A DNA stretch of 64,000 nt from Bacteroidota bacterium (GTDB lineage: Bacteria; Bacteroidota; Ignavibacteria; Ignavibacteriales; Ignavibacteriaceae): the NCBI GenBank assembly GCA_021813585.1, contig JAKAJV010000122.1, positions 1 to 64,000 of the forward strand. Direction: 5' to 3'. Shown here in pieces: positions 54,270 to 64,000 of this stretch; the stretch's first letter is position 1, and each line of letters begins with the position of its first letter. Both the position numbers and the translations under genes were made by a program. The notes under the pieces are model-generated. The model saw nothing but the letters and a program-made list of their open reading frames with translations, had not been told where the DNA came from and searched no databases.

Positions 54270-57200
54270 ATGAATGAAACCCCGGATAAGAATATCCCGA
54301 TGAAAGCACTTAATAAGAAAATAATTTCAAGTCTGCCTTGTAAGATATCGATTCTAGTTTTATGGTCAGTCTTTTTTACTTCCGCGGCTTTAGCCCAGCT
54401 GTCGGATAAAAATTTTGAGCACATAATGAGCGATAAGGGGCTGTCGCAGAATACTATTCATTATATTCTACAAGATAAGCAGGGGTTTATGTGGTTCGCT
54501 ACGGAAGACGGCCTTGATAAATACGACGGATACAACTTCGAAATATTTAAGAATATACCGAACAATAAGAATTCTATTTCGGATAATTTTATCTGGACTC
54601 TGTACCAGGATAAAGGCGGAAACCTGTGGATCGGTACGAACAGCGGCGGCCTTTGCAAGTTCGACCGGATGCTGGACCAGTTCGATAATTACAGGAATAT
54701 TCCCAGCGATTCTTCGAGCTTAAGCAGCAACAATGTACGGGCTATCTTTGAAGATGACAAAGGCGACCTGTGGATAGGCACCGAAGGCGGGGGACTTAAC
54801 GAACTGGATGAAAGGAACAATGTATTTAAACATTTCCGTCACGAGCCCGGTAATCCCCACAGCCTAAGTAACAATACTGTCCTCTCTATATATGAAGATA
54901 AGCAGGGAACATTATGGATAGGTACTGACGGCGGACTTGACAGGTTTAATAAATCCGAAGGCAATTTTCAAAGATTCCAATATGTCCCCCACGACGTACA
55001 CACTATTAGCAACAACGTAGTCCTTTCTTTATACGAAGACAGGTCGGGCGGATTTTGGGTAGGCACCTTGTTCGGCTTAAATTATTTCGACAGGAAGAGC
55101 GGCAAGTTTTACAGGTATTTCAGCAACCTGGATATTTCCAGCAGCCTTGATAACGGAAGAATTAATTCCATACTTGAAGACGAGACCGGAACGCTGTGGG
55201 TAGCTACCGGCGGCGGCTTATACCAGTTTGACAGAAAGAAAAAAAAGTTTATAAGCTTTACGCATAACCCTTCTCATTCTTCAAGCCTAAGCAACAATAA
55301 CATCCTTTCTCTCTATGAAGATTATTCCGGGATAATCTGGATTGGTACTGCCGAAGGCGGTATAATTAAGTTCGACCGGGAGAGGATGAAATTTAAGCAT
55401 TACATGTACGACCCTACGAATCCCAACAGCCTTAGCTATAATACTGTGCGCTCGCTGTATCAGGATAAAGACGGCATAATATGGATTGGAACTTTAGGCG
55501 GCGGGCTGAACAGGCTGGACAGAAGAACCAACCAATATACCCACTATCTATACAACTCGCTCAACCCGTACAGCCTGGATAATAATTCCGTAATTTCAAT
55601 TTATAGGGATAGAGCAGGCACTCTTTGGGTAGGCACCTGGGGCGGGGGATTAAATAAAGCCGTCGGCACATATGGTAAGAATATAAAGTTCGAGCATTAC
55701 CTTACAAATCCATCGGAAACAAACAGTATAAGCAATAATATTGTCCAGGCAATATACGAAGATAGGCAGGGCAGGTTTTGGATAGGAACCGGTATCGGCT
55801 TGGATATAATGGACAGGAAGACCGGCAGGTTTTACAGCTACACGAACGATAATAAAGATCCGAACAGCATTAGCGATAACCAGATTCAATCATGCATTAA
55901 GGAAGACAAGAACGGTAATTTGTGGATTGGAACCTGGAACGGCTTAAATAAGCTGGACCTTTCCAAAGTTCCGTTAAAGCCTCCTTTCGGTCGTTTAAAC
56001 TTTAACAGGTATCATCATATTGCAGGCAAGCAATCTAGCCTTAGCGACAACAGGGTAATTTCCATTTACGAAGACAAAAGCGGTACGCTTTGGTTCGGCA
56101 CGTACGGCGGCGGTTTGAATAAACTGGATGTAAGCCAGCAGAAGCTTAACAACGGCAGAGCCAGGTTTATTCACTATTCAATTAAAGACGGACTTGCAAG
56201 CAACATTATTTACGGAATTCTGGGCGACGACGAGGGAAATCTTTGGCTGAGCACCGATAACGGCCTATCCAAGTTCAATCCTAAAACCGAAGCATTTAGT
56301 AATTATTTCGAAAGCGACGGGCTGCAGGGCAATCAATTTTTCTGGGGCGCCAGTTTTAAAGGTATTAACGGCGAGCTATTCTTCGGCGGTACAAACGGCT
56401 TGAACGCTTTTTATCCTTCGCAGTTGAAAGAAAACAGGCATATTCCGCCGATTGTAATTACCGACTTGCAGATATTTAATAGGCCGGTTGAGATTGGAGC
56501 TAAGGGCTCTCCTCTGGTTAAATCGATTTTCGAAACTAAAGAAATAAAGCTCTCCTACAGCCAGAACGTCTTCTCTTTGCAATTTGCTGCGCTAGACTTT
56601 ACAGCGCCGAATAAAAACCAGTATGAGTATATGATGGAAGGCTTCGATAAGAACTGGGTTAAATCCGGAAACAGAAGGTTTGTTACCTACACAAATTTAG
56701 ACCCGGGTACTTATACCTTTAGAGTGAAAGGCTCCAACAACGACGGTATATGGAACAACAAGGGCGCTTCGTTAAAAATTATTATCCTTCCGCCGTTCTG
56801 GAGGACGTGGTGGTTTATTATTATTTCCATCGTTGTTATAGGCGGAGTTATTGTAATGTTTATTACCTACCGCGTAAAGCATTTGCTGGATATTGAACGG
56901 CTAAGGATTAAGCTTGCTGCAGATCTTCACGATAACATCGGATCGAGCCTTACAGAAATATCTATCCTCAGCGAAGTAATTTCCAAAAAGCTGGACTCGG
57001 TGGGGGACGACATTAAAAAAAGTCTTAAGATGATCAGCGATAACTCCCGCAACCTGATAGATAACATGAGCGATATTGTCTGGCTGGTTAATCCGAACCG
57101 GGACTCCCTTTACGACCTTATTTTAAGATTGAGAGATACGTATACCGAATTATCTTCGTACGCTAGCATCTCGTTCAGGTCTGAGAATTTAAAATCCCTG

Positions 57201-57503
57201 GAAAAAGTTTCTCTTTCTATGGAACACCGGCAGCACCTTTATTTGATCTTTAAGGAAGGAATTAATAACTGCATTACTCACAGCGGCTGCACAGAAATTT
57301 CTCTGGATGCTTTTATTAGAGGTAAGCGGCTGGAAATGGTTTTAAAGGATAACGGCCTTGGATTCGAAATTAATAACGAATATAACGGCAACGGGCTTAG
57401 CAATATGAAGCGCCGCGCCAAATCTATCGGCGGCGAAATCCATATCAATTCTTCCCCGGGTGAAGGCACCTCATTGATATTTGTCGGCAACATCCTTAAG
57501 TAA
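54270..57503 (+). CDS. Reg_prop (two-component regulator propeller) + Y_Y_Y + HisKA_3/HATPase sensor kinase (probable start 54300)
   Basis: Many repeats G(T/N)LWIGT.GGGL..(F/L)DR; Y_Y_Y-like YEYMMEGFDKNW...YTNLDPGTYTFRVKGSNNDGIW; kinase LAADLHDNIGSSLTEIS, DNGLGF, GNGLSNMKRRA. Confidence 0.95.
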   Translation: MNETPDKNIPMKALNKKIISSLPCKISILVLWSVFFTSAALAQLSDKNFEHIMSDKGLSQNTIHYILQDKQGFMWFATEDGLDKYDGYNFEIFKNIPNNKNSISDNFIWTLYQDKGGNLWIGTNSGGLCKFDRMLDQFDNYRNIPSDSSSLSSNNVRAIFEDDKGDLWIGTEGGGLNELDERNNVFKHFRHEPGNPHSLSNNTVLSIYEDKQGTLWIGTDGGLDRFNKSEGNFQRFQYVPHDVHTISNNVVLSLYEDRSGGFWVGTLFGLNYFDRKSGKFYRYFSNLDISSSLDNGRINSILEDETGTLWVATGGGLYQFDRKKKKFISFTHNPSHSSSLSNNNILSLYEDYSGIIWIGTAEGGIIKFDRERMKFKHYMYDPTNPNSLSYNTVRSLYQDKDGIIWIGTLGGGLNRLDRRTNQYTHYLYNSLNPYSLDNNSVISIYRDRAGTLWVGTWGGGLNKAVGTYGKNIKFEHYLTNPSETNSISNNIVQAIYEDRQGRFWIGTGIGLDIMDRKTGRFYSYTNDNKDPNSISDNQIQSCIKEDKNGNLWIGTWNGLNKLDLSKVPLKPPFGRLNFNRYHHIAGKQSSLSDNRVISIYEDKSGTLWFGTYGGGLNKLDVSQQKLNNGRARFIHYSIKDGLASNIIYGILGDDEGNLWLSTDNGLSKFNPKTEAFSNYFESDGLQGNQFFWGASFKGINGELFFGGTNGLNAFYPSQLKENRHIPPIVITDLQIFNRPVEIGAKGSPLVKSIFETKEIKLSYSQNVFSLQFAALDFTAPNKNQYEYMMEGFDKNWVKSGNRRFVTYTNLDPGTYTFRVKGSNNDGIWNNKGASLKIIILPPFWRTWWFIIISIVVIGGVIVMFITYRVKHLLDIERLRIKLAADLHDNIGSSLTEISILSEVISKKLDSVGDDIKKSLKMISDNSRNLIDNMSDIVWLVNPNRDSLYDLILRLRDTYTELSSYASISFRSENLKSLEKVSLSMEHRQHLYLIFKEGINNCITHSGCTEISLDAFIRGKRLEMVLKDNGLGFEINNEYNGNGLSNMKRRAKSIGGEIHINSSPGEGTSLIFVGNILK

Positions 57504-57681: not shown

Positions 57682-58317
57682 ATGATCAAAGTAATTGTTG
57701 TTGAGGACAATGACGCAATTAGAGAAGGACTTAGGATCTTAATCGACGGTACGGACGGCTATGCATGTATAGGTGCATATGCGGATTGTAATTCGATGCT
57801 TAAAAATTTGGAGAGGCATGAGCCGGATGTACTTCTTATGGATATCGGATTGCCCGGTATGAATGGAATAGACGGGATTAAAAAGGCCAAGGCCGTCTAT
57901 CCGGATCTTACAATTCTGGTATTAACAGTTTACGAAGAGAACGAACTGGTCTTTGATGCATTATGTGCAGGCGCCTGCGGGTATCTTGTTAAGAAAACCC
58001 CTCCGTCAAGACTGCTTGAAGCTATTCAGGAAGCATACCAGGGCGGTGCGCCGATGAGTGCAAACATAGCTAGGAAAGTAATAGATTTTTTCCAGCAGAA
58101 AAAACAGTTCCCCGCAAAGCCGCAAACTATTTTAACGCCGCGTGAAAAGGAGATCTTAAGTGGACTGGTTGAAGGGAACAGTTTTAAGGCAATAGCAGAC
58201 TCTTTGTTTATAAGCATCGAAACAGTCAGATTCCACTTCAGGAATATTTATAAAAAGCTCCATGTGCATTCCCAGTCGGAAGCCGTTGCGAAGGCAATAA
58301 AAGAAGGAATAATTTAA
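57682..58317 (+). CDS. NarL/LuxR-type response regulator, paralog 1 (track start 57664)
   Basis: Receiver VVEDNDAIREGLRIL...DVLLMDIGLPGMNGIDGI...VLTVYEEN; LuxR HTH LTPREKEILSGLVEGNSFKAIADSLFISIETVRFHFRNIYKKLHV. Confidence 0.95.
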   Translation: MIKVIVVEDNDAIREGLRILIDGTDGYACIGAYADCNSMLKNLERHEPDVLLMDIGLPGMNGIDGIKKAKAVYPDLTILVLTVYEENELVFDALCAGACGYLVKKTPPSRLLEAIQEAYQGGAPMSANIARKVIDFFQQKKQFPAKPQTILTPREKEILSGLVEGNSFKAIADSLFISIETVRFHFRNIYKKLHVHSQSEAVAKAIKEGII

Positions 58318-58357: not shown

Positions 58358-58429
58358 CTACCTATTTAGGTAGTATTAATTTATAAATACAATTTGGTTA
58401 AACAGAAAATACCTATGTTTATGTAGTGG
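58358..58429. promoter_or_regulatory. Candidate paired operator motifs: CTACCTATTTAGGTAG (58358-58373) and TACCTATGTTTATGTAGTGG (58410-58429)
   Basis: Near-palindromic; same pair recurs at 59228-59298 with almost the same spacing. Confidence 0.6.
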
Positions 58430-58552
58430 CAACAAGGCTCCAATATCGATAGATTTAATGTTGAGAAAATTAGAGATCGTTAATTATGTATATTGATACT
58501 AAGGTGAGCCGAATATTTTTATATCTTTATCTTAACGCGGCGGGCGCTTAGA

Positions 58553-59191
58553 ATGATTAAGGTTGTCGTCGTTGAAGATAACGATACTATTCGCGATGGA
58601 TTAAAGATTCTGATCGATGGTACCGAAGGCTACAGCTGCATTGGTGCATATTCCAAATGCGAGGCGATGCTTAAGGTACTTGAAAAATTACAGCCTGATG
58701 TACTTTTGATGGATATAGGTCTGCCCGGCATGAACGGCATAGACGGCATAAAAGAAGCCAAGGCTGTTTTACCCGATCTCAACATACTCGTCTTAACGGT
58801 TTATGAAGAAAACGATCTTATATTCGATGCATTATGCGCAGGGGCTTGCGGTTATCTAGTAAAGAAAACCCCCCCGTCCAAACTGCTTGAGGCAATTAAG
58901 GAAGCTACCCAGGGCGGCGCACCCATGAGCTCTCATATTGCTCGCAAGGTTATCGACTTTTTCCAGCATAAGAACCGGTCGGCATCCAAAGGCGCAAACA
59001 ACAATTTAACGCCCAGAGAACGGGAAATATTAAGCGGCCTGGTTGAAGGCAACAGCTTTAAGGCCATTGCCGATTCCCTTTTTATAAGTATAGAAACAGT
59101 CAGGTTTCACTTCAGAAACATCTATAAAAAATTACATGTTCATTCACAGTCCGAGGCGGTAGCTAAGGCAATAAAAGAAGGACTTATATAA
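58553..59191 (+). CDS. NarL/LuxR-type response regulator, paralog 2
   Basis: Highly similar along its length to 57682-58317. Confidence 0.95.
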   Translation: MIKVVVVEDNDTIRDGLKILIDGTEGYSCIGAYSKCEAMLKVLEKLQPDVLLMDIGLPGMNGIDGIKEAKAVLPDLNILVLTVYEENDLIFDALCAGACGYLVKKTPPSKLLEAIKEATQGGAPMSSHIARKVIDFFQHKNRSASKGANNNLTPREREILSGLVEGNSFKAIADSLFISIETVRFHFRNIYKKLHVHSQSEAVAKAIKEGLI

Positions 59192-59227
59192 TAGCATAGT
59201 TTTCTCTTTTTCTGCGTAAATAATCTC

Positions 59228-59298
59228 CTATCCATTTAGGTAGGAAAATATTGCGAATTTTGAGCAATTACTTGAAAATACCCATGTTTAGGTAGTGG
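59228..59298. promoter_or_regulatory. Candidate paired operator motifs: CTATCCATTTAGGTAG (59228-59243) and TACCCATGTTTAGGTAGTGG (59279-59298)
   Basis: Matches the pair at 58358-58429; upstream of the TonB receptor. Confidence 0.6.
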
Positions 59299-59440
59299 TT
59301 TAAGCAAGGGTAAATATATAGTTTATAATCAGTATTTTTACCTGCATTTAAACTATTATTAAGAAATAGACTAATCGACTAATTGAAACAAAAAGAAAAT
59401 AAATTGGTATGAAAATAATTTTTACATCCCGGAGGGATAC

Positions 59441-62242
59441 ATGAGATTTTGGCTACAGATTTTTACTATTCTTATATTATCAATACTATTATCTACCGAA
59501 GTCTTCTCTCAAACCGGAAAAATAGCAGGACAAGTATTGGATGCAGGCAATAAGCAGCCTGTCATTGGTGCTAATGTTATTATTATCGGCACCTCAATGG
59601 GTGCCGCAACCGACATAGACGGCAACTATACTATCCTGGATATTTCTCCCGGAGTTTATAACATAAGAGTTTCTGCAGTCGGCTATAGAACAGAAGAACT
59701 GCATAACGTGCGCGTCTCTATTGATTTGACTACGAGAGAAGATTTCTCGCTATCGGAATCTGCTGTTGAAATAGGTGCGGTTATAGTAACTGCACAAAAG
59801 CCCCTGGTGCAGAAAGACCTTACTGCATCAACTGCAATTATAAACAACCAGGAGATACAGTCACTTCCCGTAACAAGCATGCAGGATATTTTGCAGCTGC
59901 AAGCGGGCGTAGTTGACGGACACTTTAGAGGCGGCAGATCGGGTGAAGTATCTTATTGGATTGACGGCATACCTGTTACAGATGCATACAACGGCAGTAC
60001 GGTTGTAGATGTTAACAAAAACTCTATCCAGGAAATGCAGGTTGTTACCGGTGCATTTAATGCAGAGTACGGGCAGGCAATGAGCGGTATAGTAAACATC
60101 GCTACTAAAACCGGCGGAGATGAAACACACGGCAACCTTACTATCTACGGCGGAAGTTATGTAACAAACAATTATAATATATTCAGCGGCTTGCAAACAA
60201 TCGATCCTTTATCTACAAGGTGGATAGAAGGCTCTCTTGACGGTCCCATCATCAAAGACAAGCTCTTCTATTATGCAGACGTCCGCTACTATTATGATGC
60301 CGGCTATCTTTACGGCCAGAGGAAATTTAATACCTGGGATATTACCAACTCCCAGGCTGCAAATGAAAACGATTGGGTGATTCAGCAGACGGGAAACAAT
60401 AAAATTGTGCCCATGGCGCCTTATCTTGAGGGCTACATACAGGGAAAGCTCACTTATAAAATTTCTCCGGAATTTAGAATTTCCTACGATTATATACTGG
60501 ATAACTCCCGCGGCAAAGATTACGATTTTTCTTATAAGTACAATCCCGACGGCGAGCTTTCCAACTTCAAAAAAGGTTATTTAAATACTCTTACTCTTAC
60601 ACAGACTTTAAGCAGCAATACATATTACAAGGTTGGTCTATCATATTACTATAGAGACCAAAGGGATTATCTTGATACTAGCGCCTTCTCTTTATCCGAT
60701 CTTTTCACACGTAAAGATCCGTTCGACCAGCATTATGTTCACACAGCTCTGCTTACAGCGCCGGAAGGTACCTTCCTTACCGGAGGAACAAACATGTTCC
60801 ATGGCGATCACAGCACCGATACTTACGTATTTAAATTTGACCTGACAAGCCAGGTAACTCAGAACCACGAAATAAAGGCCGGCGTATTGTTCAACCAGTA
60901 TCAACTTTACCTGCACGACATAAATCTTCACATGTCGGATATAGACAACAACCGGGATCCCATAACAGACAGCAAGCCTTTTCTGGAAGGGCCTGTAGTT
61001 ATTCCGTCAATCGAGAGCCCGGATAATCAAGAGTATTTGCACAAGCCCTGGCAGTTCTCGGTTTATGCTCAGGATAAGATGGAGTATAAATCATTAATCG
61101 TTAACTTCGGATTGAGATTTGATTACTTCCACCCGGATGGTCAGGTGCTGGCCGATCCTTCGGACCCGAATATTTATTTGCCTTTAAAACCACAGAACCA
61201 GGACAGCGTTGTAGCACCCGGCGGTACGCATGCACAAGCCGTTGCACAGAGGATGACTTACTGGTATAAGAATGCCACAAACAAATGGCAGCTTAGCCCC
61301 AGGCTTGGTGTTGCATTCCCGATTACCGACAAAGGTATAGTTCATTTCTCTTACGGATTGTTCTTCCAGATTCCTTCGTTTGAAAGACTGTATGAGAATC
61401 CGGGATATAAACTCCCCGTTACCGGCGGCAGTACTAATCTTGGAATAATCGGAAATCCGGATTTGAAGCCCGAGCAGACTACCAGCGGCGAACTCGGTTT
61501 GCAGCAGGAGCTGACGAACGATATTGCAATTGATATTACTGGCTTCTTTAGAGATGTAAGAAATCTTGCCGGTACGCTGAATGAGTTTCAATATGTATTC
61601 GGCGGATCGAAAATATACAGTGAGTATGTTAACTCCGATTTCGGCTTTGTCCGCGGAATAGTTTTATCGGTGGATAAAAGGTTCAGCGGCGGAATATCGG
61701 CCAGTATGGATTATACTTTCCAAATTGCCAAAGGAGACGCATCGGACCCGACTACAGCGTACAACTTGCGCAACAGCGGCGTTCAGGCGCAGGCCCAATT
61801 AATACCTCTGGATTGGGATCAGAGGCATACATTGAATTTGACTGTTAACTATGCTAACGCCGATAACTGGGGCGGAAGCTTAATATTCCAGTACGGCAGC
61901 GGCACGCCTTATACTCCATTGAACATTGTAAGCATTGGCAACCTGAGCACCAACTCTCAAAATAAGCCTTCCACTTACAATTTGAATTTGCGCTTATATA
62001 AAGATATTAAGATCGGCTCTTCTACTCTCTCCATATTCCTTAGAGTCGATAATGTTCTGGATACCAAAAACGCCACTCAAGTATTTACCGATACCGGTCA
62101 GCCGGATTGGTCTATTGCAGAGCTCCAGCAGCTGGCTATAAATCCTCCGCAGAGAGTTGCTACGGTTCAGGACTGGTATACACGTCCTAACTATTACTCC
62201 GCGCCTAGGAGAATACAATTTGGAACATCAATTACATTTTAA
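59441..62242 (+). CDS. TonB-dependent receptor with N-terminal carboxypeptidase-like regulatory domain
   Basis: GKIAGQVLDAGNKQPVIGANVIIIGTSMGAATDIDGNYTILDISPGVYNIRVSAVGY; plug QEIQSLPVTSMQDILQLQAGVVDG...YWIDGIPVTDAYN; RBS CGGAGGG upstream. Confidence 0.95.
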   Translation: MRFWLQIFTILILSILLSTEVFSQTGKIAGQVLDAGNKQPVIGANVIIIGTSMGAATDIDGNYTILDISPGVYNIRVSAVGYRTEELHNVRVSIDLTTREDFSLSESAVEIGAVIVTAQKPLVQKDLTASTAIINNQEIQSLPVTSMQDILQLQAGVVDGHFRGGRSGEVSYWIDGIPVTDAYNGSTVVDVNKNSIQEMQVVTGAFNAEYGQAMSGIVNIATKTGGDETHGNLTIYGGSYVTNNYNIFSGLQTIDPLSTRWIEGSLDGPIIKDKLFYYADVRYYYDAGYLYGQRKFNTWDITNSQAANENDWVIQQTGNNKIVPMAPYLEGYIQGKLTYKISPEFRISYDYILDNSRGKDYDFSYKYNPDGELSNFKKGYLNTLTLTQTLSSNTYYKVGLSYYYRDQRDYLDTSAFSLSDLFTRKDPFDQHYVHTALLTAPEGTFLTGGTNMFHGDHSTDTYVFKFDLTSQVTQNHEIKAGVLFNQYQLYLHDINLHMSDIDNNRDPITDSKPFLEGPVVIPSIESPDNQEYLHKPWQFSVYAQDKMEYKSLIVNFGLRFDYFHPDGQVLADPSDPNIYLPLKPQNQDSVVAPGGTHAQAVAQRMTYWYKNATNKWQLSPRLGVAFPITDKGIVHFSYGLFFQIPSFERLYENPGYKLPVTGGSTNLGIIGNPDLKPEQTTSGELGLQQELTNDIAIDITGFFRDVRNLAGTLNEFQYVFGGSKIYSEYVNSDFGFVRGIVLSVDKRFSGGISASMDYTFQIAKGDASDPTTAYNLRNSGVQAQAQLIPLDWDQRHTLNLTVNYANADNWGGSLIFQYGSGTPYTPLNIVSIGNLSTNSQNKPSTYNLNLRLYKDIKIGSSTLSIFLRVDNVLDTKNATQVFTDTGQPDWSIAELQQLAINPPQRVATVQDWYTRPNYYSAPRRIQFGTSITF

Positions 62243-62244
62243 AG

Positions 62245-64000
62245 ATGCAGGTTAAAAGTATGCGAAAACTATTAATATTTACTTTTGTTTTAATTGTAGC
62301 CGGTTGTGTGTTTGGACAGCAGGATCCGTTTATCCAGTGGGCAAAATCCCATAGAGGCAACAGCCTTTACACAAGGTTCGGTATTCACAACGGAAATAGA
62401 ATTGCAATTACATTCCGTAACGACGGATCGATCTCCGGTACCAATCCAAACGATTTAAGAGGATACTGGCCTTACCCGCAGACGCAAGACGGCTATATAG
62501 GAGATGTTACTCCTCTGGTAGGCATTCAGCTTCCTATCCGCGATTATAACGGAGACGGGAAGCCGGACACTCTGCATTCGGTTACCATATCTCCCGGCCC
62601 CAGGTCAGGTCAAGCTGCAAAGACCGATCCCAGAGACGGGCATTTCCAGGGCTTTGAGCCAGAGCCCGGCTACCTGAATGAAGGACAGGATACCGTTGCG
62701 ATGAGCCATATACCCTCTACATGGCCTACATTTTGGCCGGACCACCCGGACTGGGTTGACTCTACAGGCAAGTCTGTTTGGGACGGTTACTTCGGCAAAG
62801 GCGTAATTAGAGCAGACCAGGAAAGCTATTTTGTTATGGACGATGCGATGGATACAAGCCCGCAGATTAGAACTAATTTCCTTTTCCATCCAGATTCCAC
62901 CGATACCACACGCAACGGAATGGGATTGGTTGTAAGAGTTAGAGGCATGCAGTGGGCGCAGGTTCAAGCGCAGGATGTTTTGTTCTGGCTGTACGATATT
63001 ACGAACATAGGTACTACTAATTACCAGAAAGTTGTTTTCGGCGAAGTTGTCGGAGGCTGCGTTGGAGACGTAGGCCAGAATTATGTTGACTGCGGTGACG
63101 ATCTAGGATATTTCGATTTAAATAATAACTTAACTTATACGTGGGACAGCGACGACCATACATCCGATCCTCTGTGGATACCGATTAACCAGGTATTGCC
63201 CGGCGTACGCACTAACATCGGATATGCGGGTTATGCTTACCTGGAAAGCCCGGGCAACGGCTATGATGCAATCGACAACGATAACGATGCCGTTGACCCC
63301 AACAGCCCTGTTTTCCAGGATAATGATTTCGCATTCAGCTCGGTAACAAATTCCTACGTTGCTACCAGAACGCTGCACAGAAACAACGCTGGTACAAATC
63401 CCAACTGGCCGGATAATAAAATCATCTTAATTAATCCTGCTACATATAACAGGACGATTGTAAACCTAGATACTTTGTTAAAGAGCGCCACGGATACTGC
63501 GATAGTTTATTCGCTGGGTAAAGCATATAAAATTTACGACGGGGAAACTTTGTTTGAGATACCGAATAACGGACTGGACGACAACCTTAACGGAATAATT
63601 GACGAGAACAGGGACTTGCATTATAAAAGAGTTTTCAAAGATAGAAACGGCGCTGTGTTAAAGGAAGAAGTAAGGCCTCTGGCATACAGAAATTATTTTA
63701 CCAACGGCGGAATGAACAATACTCTAATAGATGAGAGAAGAGACAGCGGACCCGGCCAGATAACATCCGGCTGGGTTCCGGATTACAGCCAGCAGCCCGA
63801 TCCTATTACAGGCCGGTACCCCGGTAAAGTTGAAACTCATTGGTCCGGTGATGAGAATGGAGATTGGAACCCGCTGAAAGATGATGTGGGGGCAGACGGC
63901 TTACCCGGCACTCATGATATAGGAGAGGGCGACGGCATACCGACCGAAGGAGAACCGCATTTTGATCAGACTGATGTTAATGAATCTGATCAGATAGGAT
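62245..64000 (+). CDS. Exported hypothetical protein, 3'-truncated by window edge (start 62245 or 62260)
   Basis: Open to the window end and so absent from the ORF track: MQVKSMRKLLIFTFVLIVAGCVFGQQDPFIQWAKSHRGNSLYTRFGIHNGNRIAITFRNDGSISGTNPNDLRGYWPYPQTQ...; follows the TonB receptor directly. Confidence 0.85.
   Translation, partial: MQVKSMRKLLIFTFVLIVAGCVFGQQDPFIQWAKSHRGNSLYTRFGIHNGNRIAITFRNDGSISGTNPNDLRGYWPYPQTQDGYIGDVTPLVGIQLPIRDYNGDGKPDTLHSVTISPGPRSGQAAKTDPRDGHFQGFEPEPGYLNEGQDTVAMSHIPSTWPTFWPDHPDWVDSTGKSVWDGYFGKGVIRADQESYFVMDDAMDTSPQIRTNFLFHPDSTDTTRNGMGLVVRVRGMQWAQVQAQDVLFWLYDITNIGTTNYQKVVFGEVVGGCVGDVGQNYVDCGDDLGYFDLNNNLTYTWDSDDHTSDPLWIPINQVLPGVRTNIGYAGYAYLESPGNGYDAIDNDNDAVDPNSPVFQDNDFAFSSVTNSYVATRTLHRNNAGTNPNWPDNKIILINPATYNRTIVNLDTLLKSATDTAIVYSLGKAYKIYDGETLFEIPNNGLDDNLNGIIDENRDLHYKRVFKDRNGAVLKEEVRPLAYRNYFTNGGMNNTLIDERRDSGPGQITSGWVPDYSQQPDPITGRYPGKVETHWSGDENGDWNPLKDDVGADGLPGTHDIGEGDGIPTEGEPHFDQTDVNESDQIG

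Follow-up and report, generated by a model that had tools for sequence, protein, structure and literature searches.

In the HTCS regulators of Bacteroides, kinase, receiver and DNA-binding domain are joined in one protein, and the output is of the AraC type. Two-site activator promoters, with tandem sites, a proximal site next to the polymerase and whole-turn spacing, are known for regulators of the UhpA, BvgA and DegU kinds. The NarX/NarQ-NarL system of Escherichia coli, which serves nitrate respiration, combines HisKA_3 kinases with a regulator made of a receiver and a GerE domain that uses TACC/GGTA half-sites, as in the 7-2-7 site TACCCCTAAAGGGGTA (PMC4549865). Starch use has been described for Melioribacter roseus (PMC3534657), and the portion of that paper considered here does not mention the regulator described below; no report of the operator or regulon presented below was found in the open-access literature.

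We analyzed a 64,000-nucleotide stretch of contig JAKAJV010000122.1 (referred to as the window) from an uncultured bacterium that its nearest named relatives place in the Ignavibacteriaceae, in which a sensor kinase and two response regulators precede a TonB-dependent receptor, and followed the receptor operon past the end of the window. The genes are as follows (domains assigned by Pfam):

54270-57503, + strand, sensor histidine kinase (Reg_prop propeller, Y_Y_Y, HisKA_3, HATPase_c)
57682-58317, + strand, regulator 1 (RR1; receiver and GerE/LuxR-type helix-turn-helix)
58553-59191, + strand, regulator 2 (RR2; receiver and GerE/LuxR-type helix-turn-helix)
59441-62242, + strand, TonB-dependent receptor (carboxypeptidase-regulatory-like domain, plug, barrel)
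62245-64000, continuing to contig position 65886, + strand, gene for a 1213-aa protein, first behind the receptor
contig 65896-66903, beyond the window, PorV-family protein
contig 66905-71101, beyond the window, alpha-amylase with a type IX sorting tail
contig 71181-72674, beyond the window, secreted protein
contig 72894-77318, beyond the window, second alpha-amylase
contig 77353-79140, beyond the window, PPIase

The two amylases behind the receptor lie further along the contig and are invisible within the window; because of them, the operon appears to be devoted to the breakdown of a starch-type glucan. The 1213-aa protein has no Pfam match and no SusD match; nearly all relatives, as far as the Melioribacteraceae, have its gene directly behind that of the receptor. 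Synteny of the relatives showed that the gene order kinase-regulator(-regulator)-receptor extends from the genus of the window to the Melioribacteraceae.

With the SusR and HTCS polysaccharide utilization loci of Bacteroides, this locus shares a Reg_prop/Y_Y_Y sensor adjoining genes for a TonB receptor and secreted amylases. It differs in having separate kinase and regulator proteins, a GerE output domain and secreted enzymes with type IX tails. Assignment as an HTCS was rejected: the kinase has no receiver domain by Pfam and the protein ends past HATPase_c, the regulators being separate genes. The locus is not of the Sus type either, as the receptor reached 76 bits against a cut-off of 368 for SusC/RagA (NCBIfam) and the following gene gave no SusD match.

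Both regulators matched PF00072 and PF00196 above the cut-offs and are thus NarL/FixJ-type response regulators. Their closest matches of solved structure include NarL and VraR. They are not NarL orthologues (132 bits versus an equivalog cut-off of 250), and whereas NarL serves nitrate respiration, the targets here are a TonB receptor and amylases. RR2 is 83% identical to RR1 at the amino acid level, and both contain D54, T82 and K104, i.e. the phosphoacceptor aspartate and the conserved threonine and lysine.

A preliminary description of this DNA had reported the same pair of sites, in the same order, upstream of RR2 and of the receptor. Its coordinates were verified, as was the start-to-start distance within each pair (52 bp before RR2 and 51 bp before the receptor). 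We call the distal 16-bp site S1 and the proximal site S2, and found a third common part that had been missed, a TAGnTT box that lies exactly 20 bp behind S2 in both regions:

58358-58373, + strand, S1 of the RR2 promoter, CTACCTATTTAGGTAG
58410-58429 (58406-58429 with a conserved AAAA lead), + strand, S2 of the RR2 promoter, TACCTATGTTTATGTAGTGG
58450-58456, + strand, TAGATTT, -7-like box of the RR2 promoter, 20 bp after S2
59228-59243, + strand, S1 of the receptor/amylase operon promoter, CTATCCATTTAGGTAG
59279-59298 (59275-59298 with the AAAA lead), + strand, S2 of the receptor/amylase operon promoter, TACCCATGTTTAGGTAGTGG
59319-59325, + strand, TAGTTTA, -7-like box of the receptor/amylase promoter, 20 bp after S2

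When up to three mismatches were allowed, S2 matched the window twice against 0.11 matches expected, and no shuffled sequence gave two. At up to two mismatches, the two window sites were the only matches in the 4.54-Mb genome. The left half is degenerate in both S1 and S2, and their spacings are TACC-N6-GGTA and TACC-N8-GGTA, respectively; dyad covariation in S1 was weak (positions 5/10, reached by 0.08 of the permutations).

A comparison of the two intergenic regions supported the earlier statement that the DNA around the sites is largely divergent. S1 is identical at 14 of 16 positions and AAAA plus S2 at 22 of 24 (88-92%), while the S1-S2 spacer (10/31), the stretch between S2 and the box (5/20) and the flanks (11/36 and 25/96) are at chance level. 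The repeat had been attributed to selection rather than simple duplication. Selection is borne out by the retention of the sites amid DNA at chance identity; the exclusion of duplication is not, because the regions are collinear with the regulator copies. The RR1 and RR2 genes (about 78% DNA identity) are offset by 871-874 bp, with the regulator-gene copies at 871/874 bp, and S1 and S2 by 870 and 869 bp, so that the two regions probably have a common ancestry. Most probably, a unit of regulator plus downstream promoter was duplicated in tandem, and selection would then have retained the sites alone.

The half-sites had also been compared with the NarL heptamer TACYYMT. The left half-sites of the window do fit it; in relatives, TACCTTC, AACCTCT or TACCTAC occurs there, and the sixth and seventh bases are not kept. 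The proposed difference from the 7-2-7 spacing holds for S1, which is 2 bp shorter between the half-sites, but not for S2, whose TACC-N8-GGTA has the same spacing as the NarL site. A NarL 7-2-7 operator, that is, inverted TACYYMT 2 bp apart, was rejected: S1 is too short, and in S2 the right half TTAKGTA departs from it and the left half varies in relatives. Since the left half-sites of relatives vary, the likeness to NarL concerns the protein family and the geometry, and the site is not thereby a NarL operator.

The promoters of Bacteroides and Flavobacterium have a -7 consensus of TAnnTTTG (PMC7366714). TAGnTT at a fixed distance fits most of this consensus; its final TG is not kept, and the consensus comes from Bacteroides and not from this phylum. 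Comparative genomics yielded a three-part promoter, S1/S2/TAGnTT. In 33 promoters, the box began 40 bp from the start of S2 in 30 by the strict pattern and 41 bp from it in two, and the last one had a one-base variant, TAGATTC. If the first T of the box is near -12, we estimate the centre of S2 near -43, as S2 ends 20 bp before the box, and that of S1 near -94. In geometry, these estimated centres correspond to a class II promoter (a site near -42 plus a helically phased second site).

The S1-S2 spacing is either 50-52 or 40-41 bp, the short class being one DNA turn less. When we searched 22-100 bp upstream of S2, the best S1 partner lay at 40, 41, 50, 51 or 52 bp in all 45 promoters, seven of which are distant and had initially been found by a scan with preset spacing limits. 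The partners had 0-3 mismatches, versus mostly 4-6 in shuffled sequences. A strict search of 164 genomes, in which 40-52 bp was allowed without preference, again gave just these two classes. The short spacing occurs in unrelated promoters, namely in a single-regulator clade, at one regulator 2, at one amylase and at three more distant loci. Like promoters of the UhpA, BvgA and DegU type, those described here have tandem sites at whole-turn spacing, the proximal one next to the presumed polymerase site; they differ in a motif of their own, a -7-like box of the Bacteroidota kind and presumed feedback onto a second, paralogous regulator.

The strict three-part pattern matched 20 times in the 164 genomes of the order and never in the reversed control. 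All 20 matches are at promoters, in agreement with the promoter enrichment that the preliminary description had suggested checking genome-wide: 17 adjoin regulators and three precede genes of secreted alpha-amylases. In the own genome, the two promoters of the window are the only S1/S2 pairs. Only the paired architecture is informative, since loose single-site scans of this genome gave matches about equal to or below the reversed controls over most of the scan. This genome encodes five further regulators that are about 46-52% identical to RR2 (C116:59592, C127:6215, C68:12432, C94:3229 and C106:31812), none of which has an S1/S2 pair by the genome-wide search. One S2-like match in a related genome (G012:C115:2125) has a poor S1 partner and no clear gene start close behind.

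In five sibling genomes, the amylase search located the amylase gene apart from the receptor operon, and in all five the promoter precedes it. Pfam confirmed four of the five encoded proteins as alpha-amylases carrying type IX tails; the remaining gene is on a truncated contig. The amylases within the operon (in the window genome and in G001) have no promoter of their own. This association of promoter and amylase, which was not used in the motif definition, is the strongest functional evidence. In four sibling genomes (L199, L201, L202 and L203), the unlinked amylase gene and a gene for a protein of some 330 aa, of the radical SAM family in L199, are divergently oriented about 285-330 bp apart.

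In Ignavibacteriaceae, S1, S2 and the box follow every copy of the regulator whose downstream flank is intact, single-regulator lineages included. In Melioribacteraceae, we found only degenerate, weaker versions, partly under preset spacing limits, and in a Calditrichia MAG (L108) a weaker site and the gene of a secreted amylase-like protein come next after the regulator. Across the 33 aligned promoters, C0, T8, G12, T13 and G15 of S1 and A1, C2, G13 and G16 of S2 are invariant, and the flanks carry near zero information. By this comparison, S1, S2 and the box form a conserved promoter module that is maintained by selection. As stated earlier for the window, there is no equivalent before regulator 1, either here or in any relative examined; an S1/S2-like element before the kinase is likewise absent from the window and from every relative examined. 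Two assembly features were seen among the relatives. In L089 (8839-9629, a MAG), the second regulator is in two overlapping frames and looks frameshifted, by decay or assembly error, and the 10.6-kb contig G006:C21 (L111/L112) begins and ends within genes of the regulator pair, which looks as though the assembly had collapsed or broken where the copies resemble each other.

The candidate binders are RR1 and RR2 themselves. Their recognition helix ETVRFHFRNIYKKL is identical in the two proteins of the window, which look equally binding-competent by this comparison, and is nearly invariant in the first regulators of all lineages. Relative to RR1 of the window, most first regulators are 75-96% identical in the helix-turn-helix and 57-84% identical in the receiver; the better-kept helix-turn-helix matches the well-conserved operator. 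We strongly infer that RR1 and RR2 bind S1 and S2 and activate transcription.

The second regulator has a different fate in other lineages. Its recognition helix is decayed in ten loci (L092, L097, L098, L099, L100, L101, L104, L105, L106 and L117), with the receiver aspartate, threonine and lysine retained except in L099 (aspartate and threonine lost) and L100 (serine for threonine). Of the ten RR2s tested, six lacked GerE or scored below its cut-off, among them that of M. roseus, and two had no GerE match. Since the receiver residues persist despite the decayed helix, and in several lineages the promoter as well (L092, L097 and L098 still have the full promoter before the decayed RR2), RR2 seems to have been retained there for a role other than contact with S1/S2, possibly as a feedback modulator. 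That RR2 is such a modulator and not a second activator, being induced by RR1 and tuning RR1 through mixed dimers or competition for phosphate, is a tentative proposal that we consider plausible but less likely than not. The regulator tree does not separate a single RR1/RR2 duplication from several homogenisations.

Taken together, the locus very probably encodes a dedicated starch two-component system, in which one or more phosphorylated NarL-type regulators act at the paired sites and switch on both regulator 2 and the operon of receptor and amylases. The Reg_prop/Y_Y_Y kinase would respond to a breakdown product on the outer side of the cytoplasmic membrane, our best guess for the ligand being a product of starch, and would phosphorylate RR1 and probably RR2 too. 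One regulator dimer could then occupy S1 and another S2, on the same face of the DNA and about five (or four) turns apart, as the geometry suggests. From its position near -43, the S2 dimer could touch RNA polymerase and activate transcription. This would induce regulator 2, as positive feedback or as one step of a two-step switch, together with the operon for the TonB receptor, the PorV protein and the amylases. A circuit in which the kinase and the regulators control regulator 2 and the receptor/export genes had been predicted before; comparative genomics supports it, because the pair is conserved downstream of regulators, does not occur before regulator 1 and is otherwise confined to genes of secreted alpha-amylases, and binding itself is deduced from these patterns.

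The link between regulator and site comes from comparison, and in one genome (G005, an assembly that is 79% complete) the amylase has the promoter and there is no close regulator (best 46%). Both points would fit a true operator bound by some other regulator, global or encoded elsewhere, with the neighbouring two-component system acting at other sites. We regard this as unlikely, since the site follows every regulator copy, also in single-copy lineages, and is otherwise found only at amylases, and since the promoter is absent from the genus genomes without a close regulator (G003 and G011); a global regulator would moreover be expected to have many more sites. NarL does repress at some promoters (PMC4549865), and the sites could accordingly be repressor operators at which the regulators silence the promoters until the signal arrives. 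This reading is slightly less probable still: simple repression would predict sites overlapping the start, whereas S2 ends 20 bp before the -7-like box, S1 lies about 94 bp before the presumed start, and their whole-turn spacing is an activator geometry.

S1 is nearly palindromic and lies past a stop codon, as might be expected if the dyads acted as RNA, in the form of terminators or leader hairpins behind each regulator. The loop would have only two bases, however, no run of T follows, and no Rfam family scored above the gathering threshold (one sub-threshold snoRNA match is meaningless). The elements also stand upstream of a promoter box, and before amylase genes that have no regulator upstream, which makes an RNA function very improbable. 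The collinearity with the regulator duplication would suit a repeat without function, left behind when the regulator recently underwent tandem duplication or gene conversion, but we consider this refuted and its residual probability negligible: the sites are conserved where spacer and flanks have diverged, and they recur in lineages that have a single regulator and before amylase genes that are not linked to the locus.

The starch two-component system proposed here provides a testable operator, a promoter geometry and a small regulon for the phylum Ignavibacteriota, where mapped regulators are almost absent, and would connect starch breakdown with an uncharacterised family of Reg_prop kinases. 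Spacing that jumps by whole turns, and a promoter that tracks the amylase gene, illustrate how a narrow regulon survives genome rearrangement. The paralogous RR2s offer a natural record of how a DNA-binding response regulator decays stage by stage; if RR2 is indeed a modulator, the window would represent an early stage, in which both helices are still identical.
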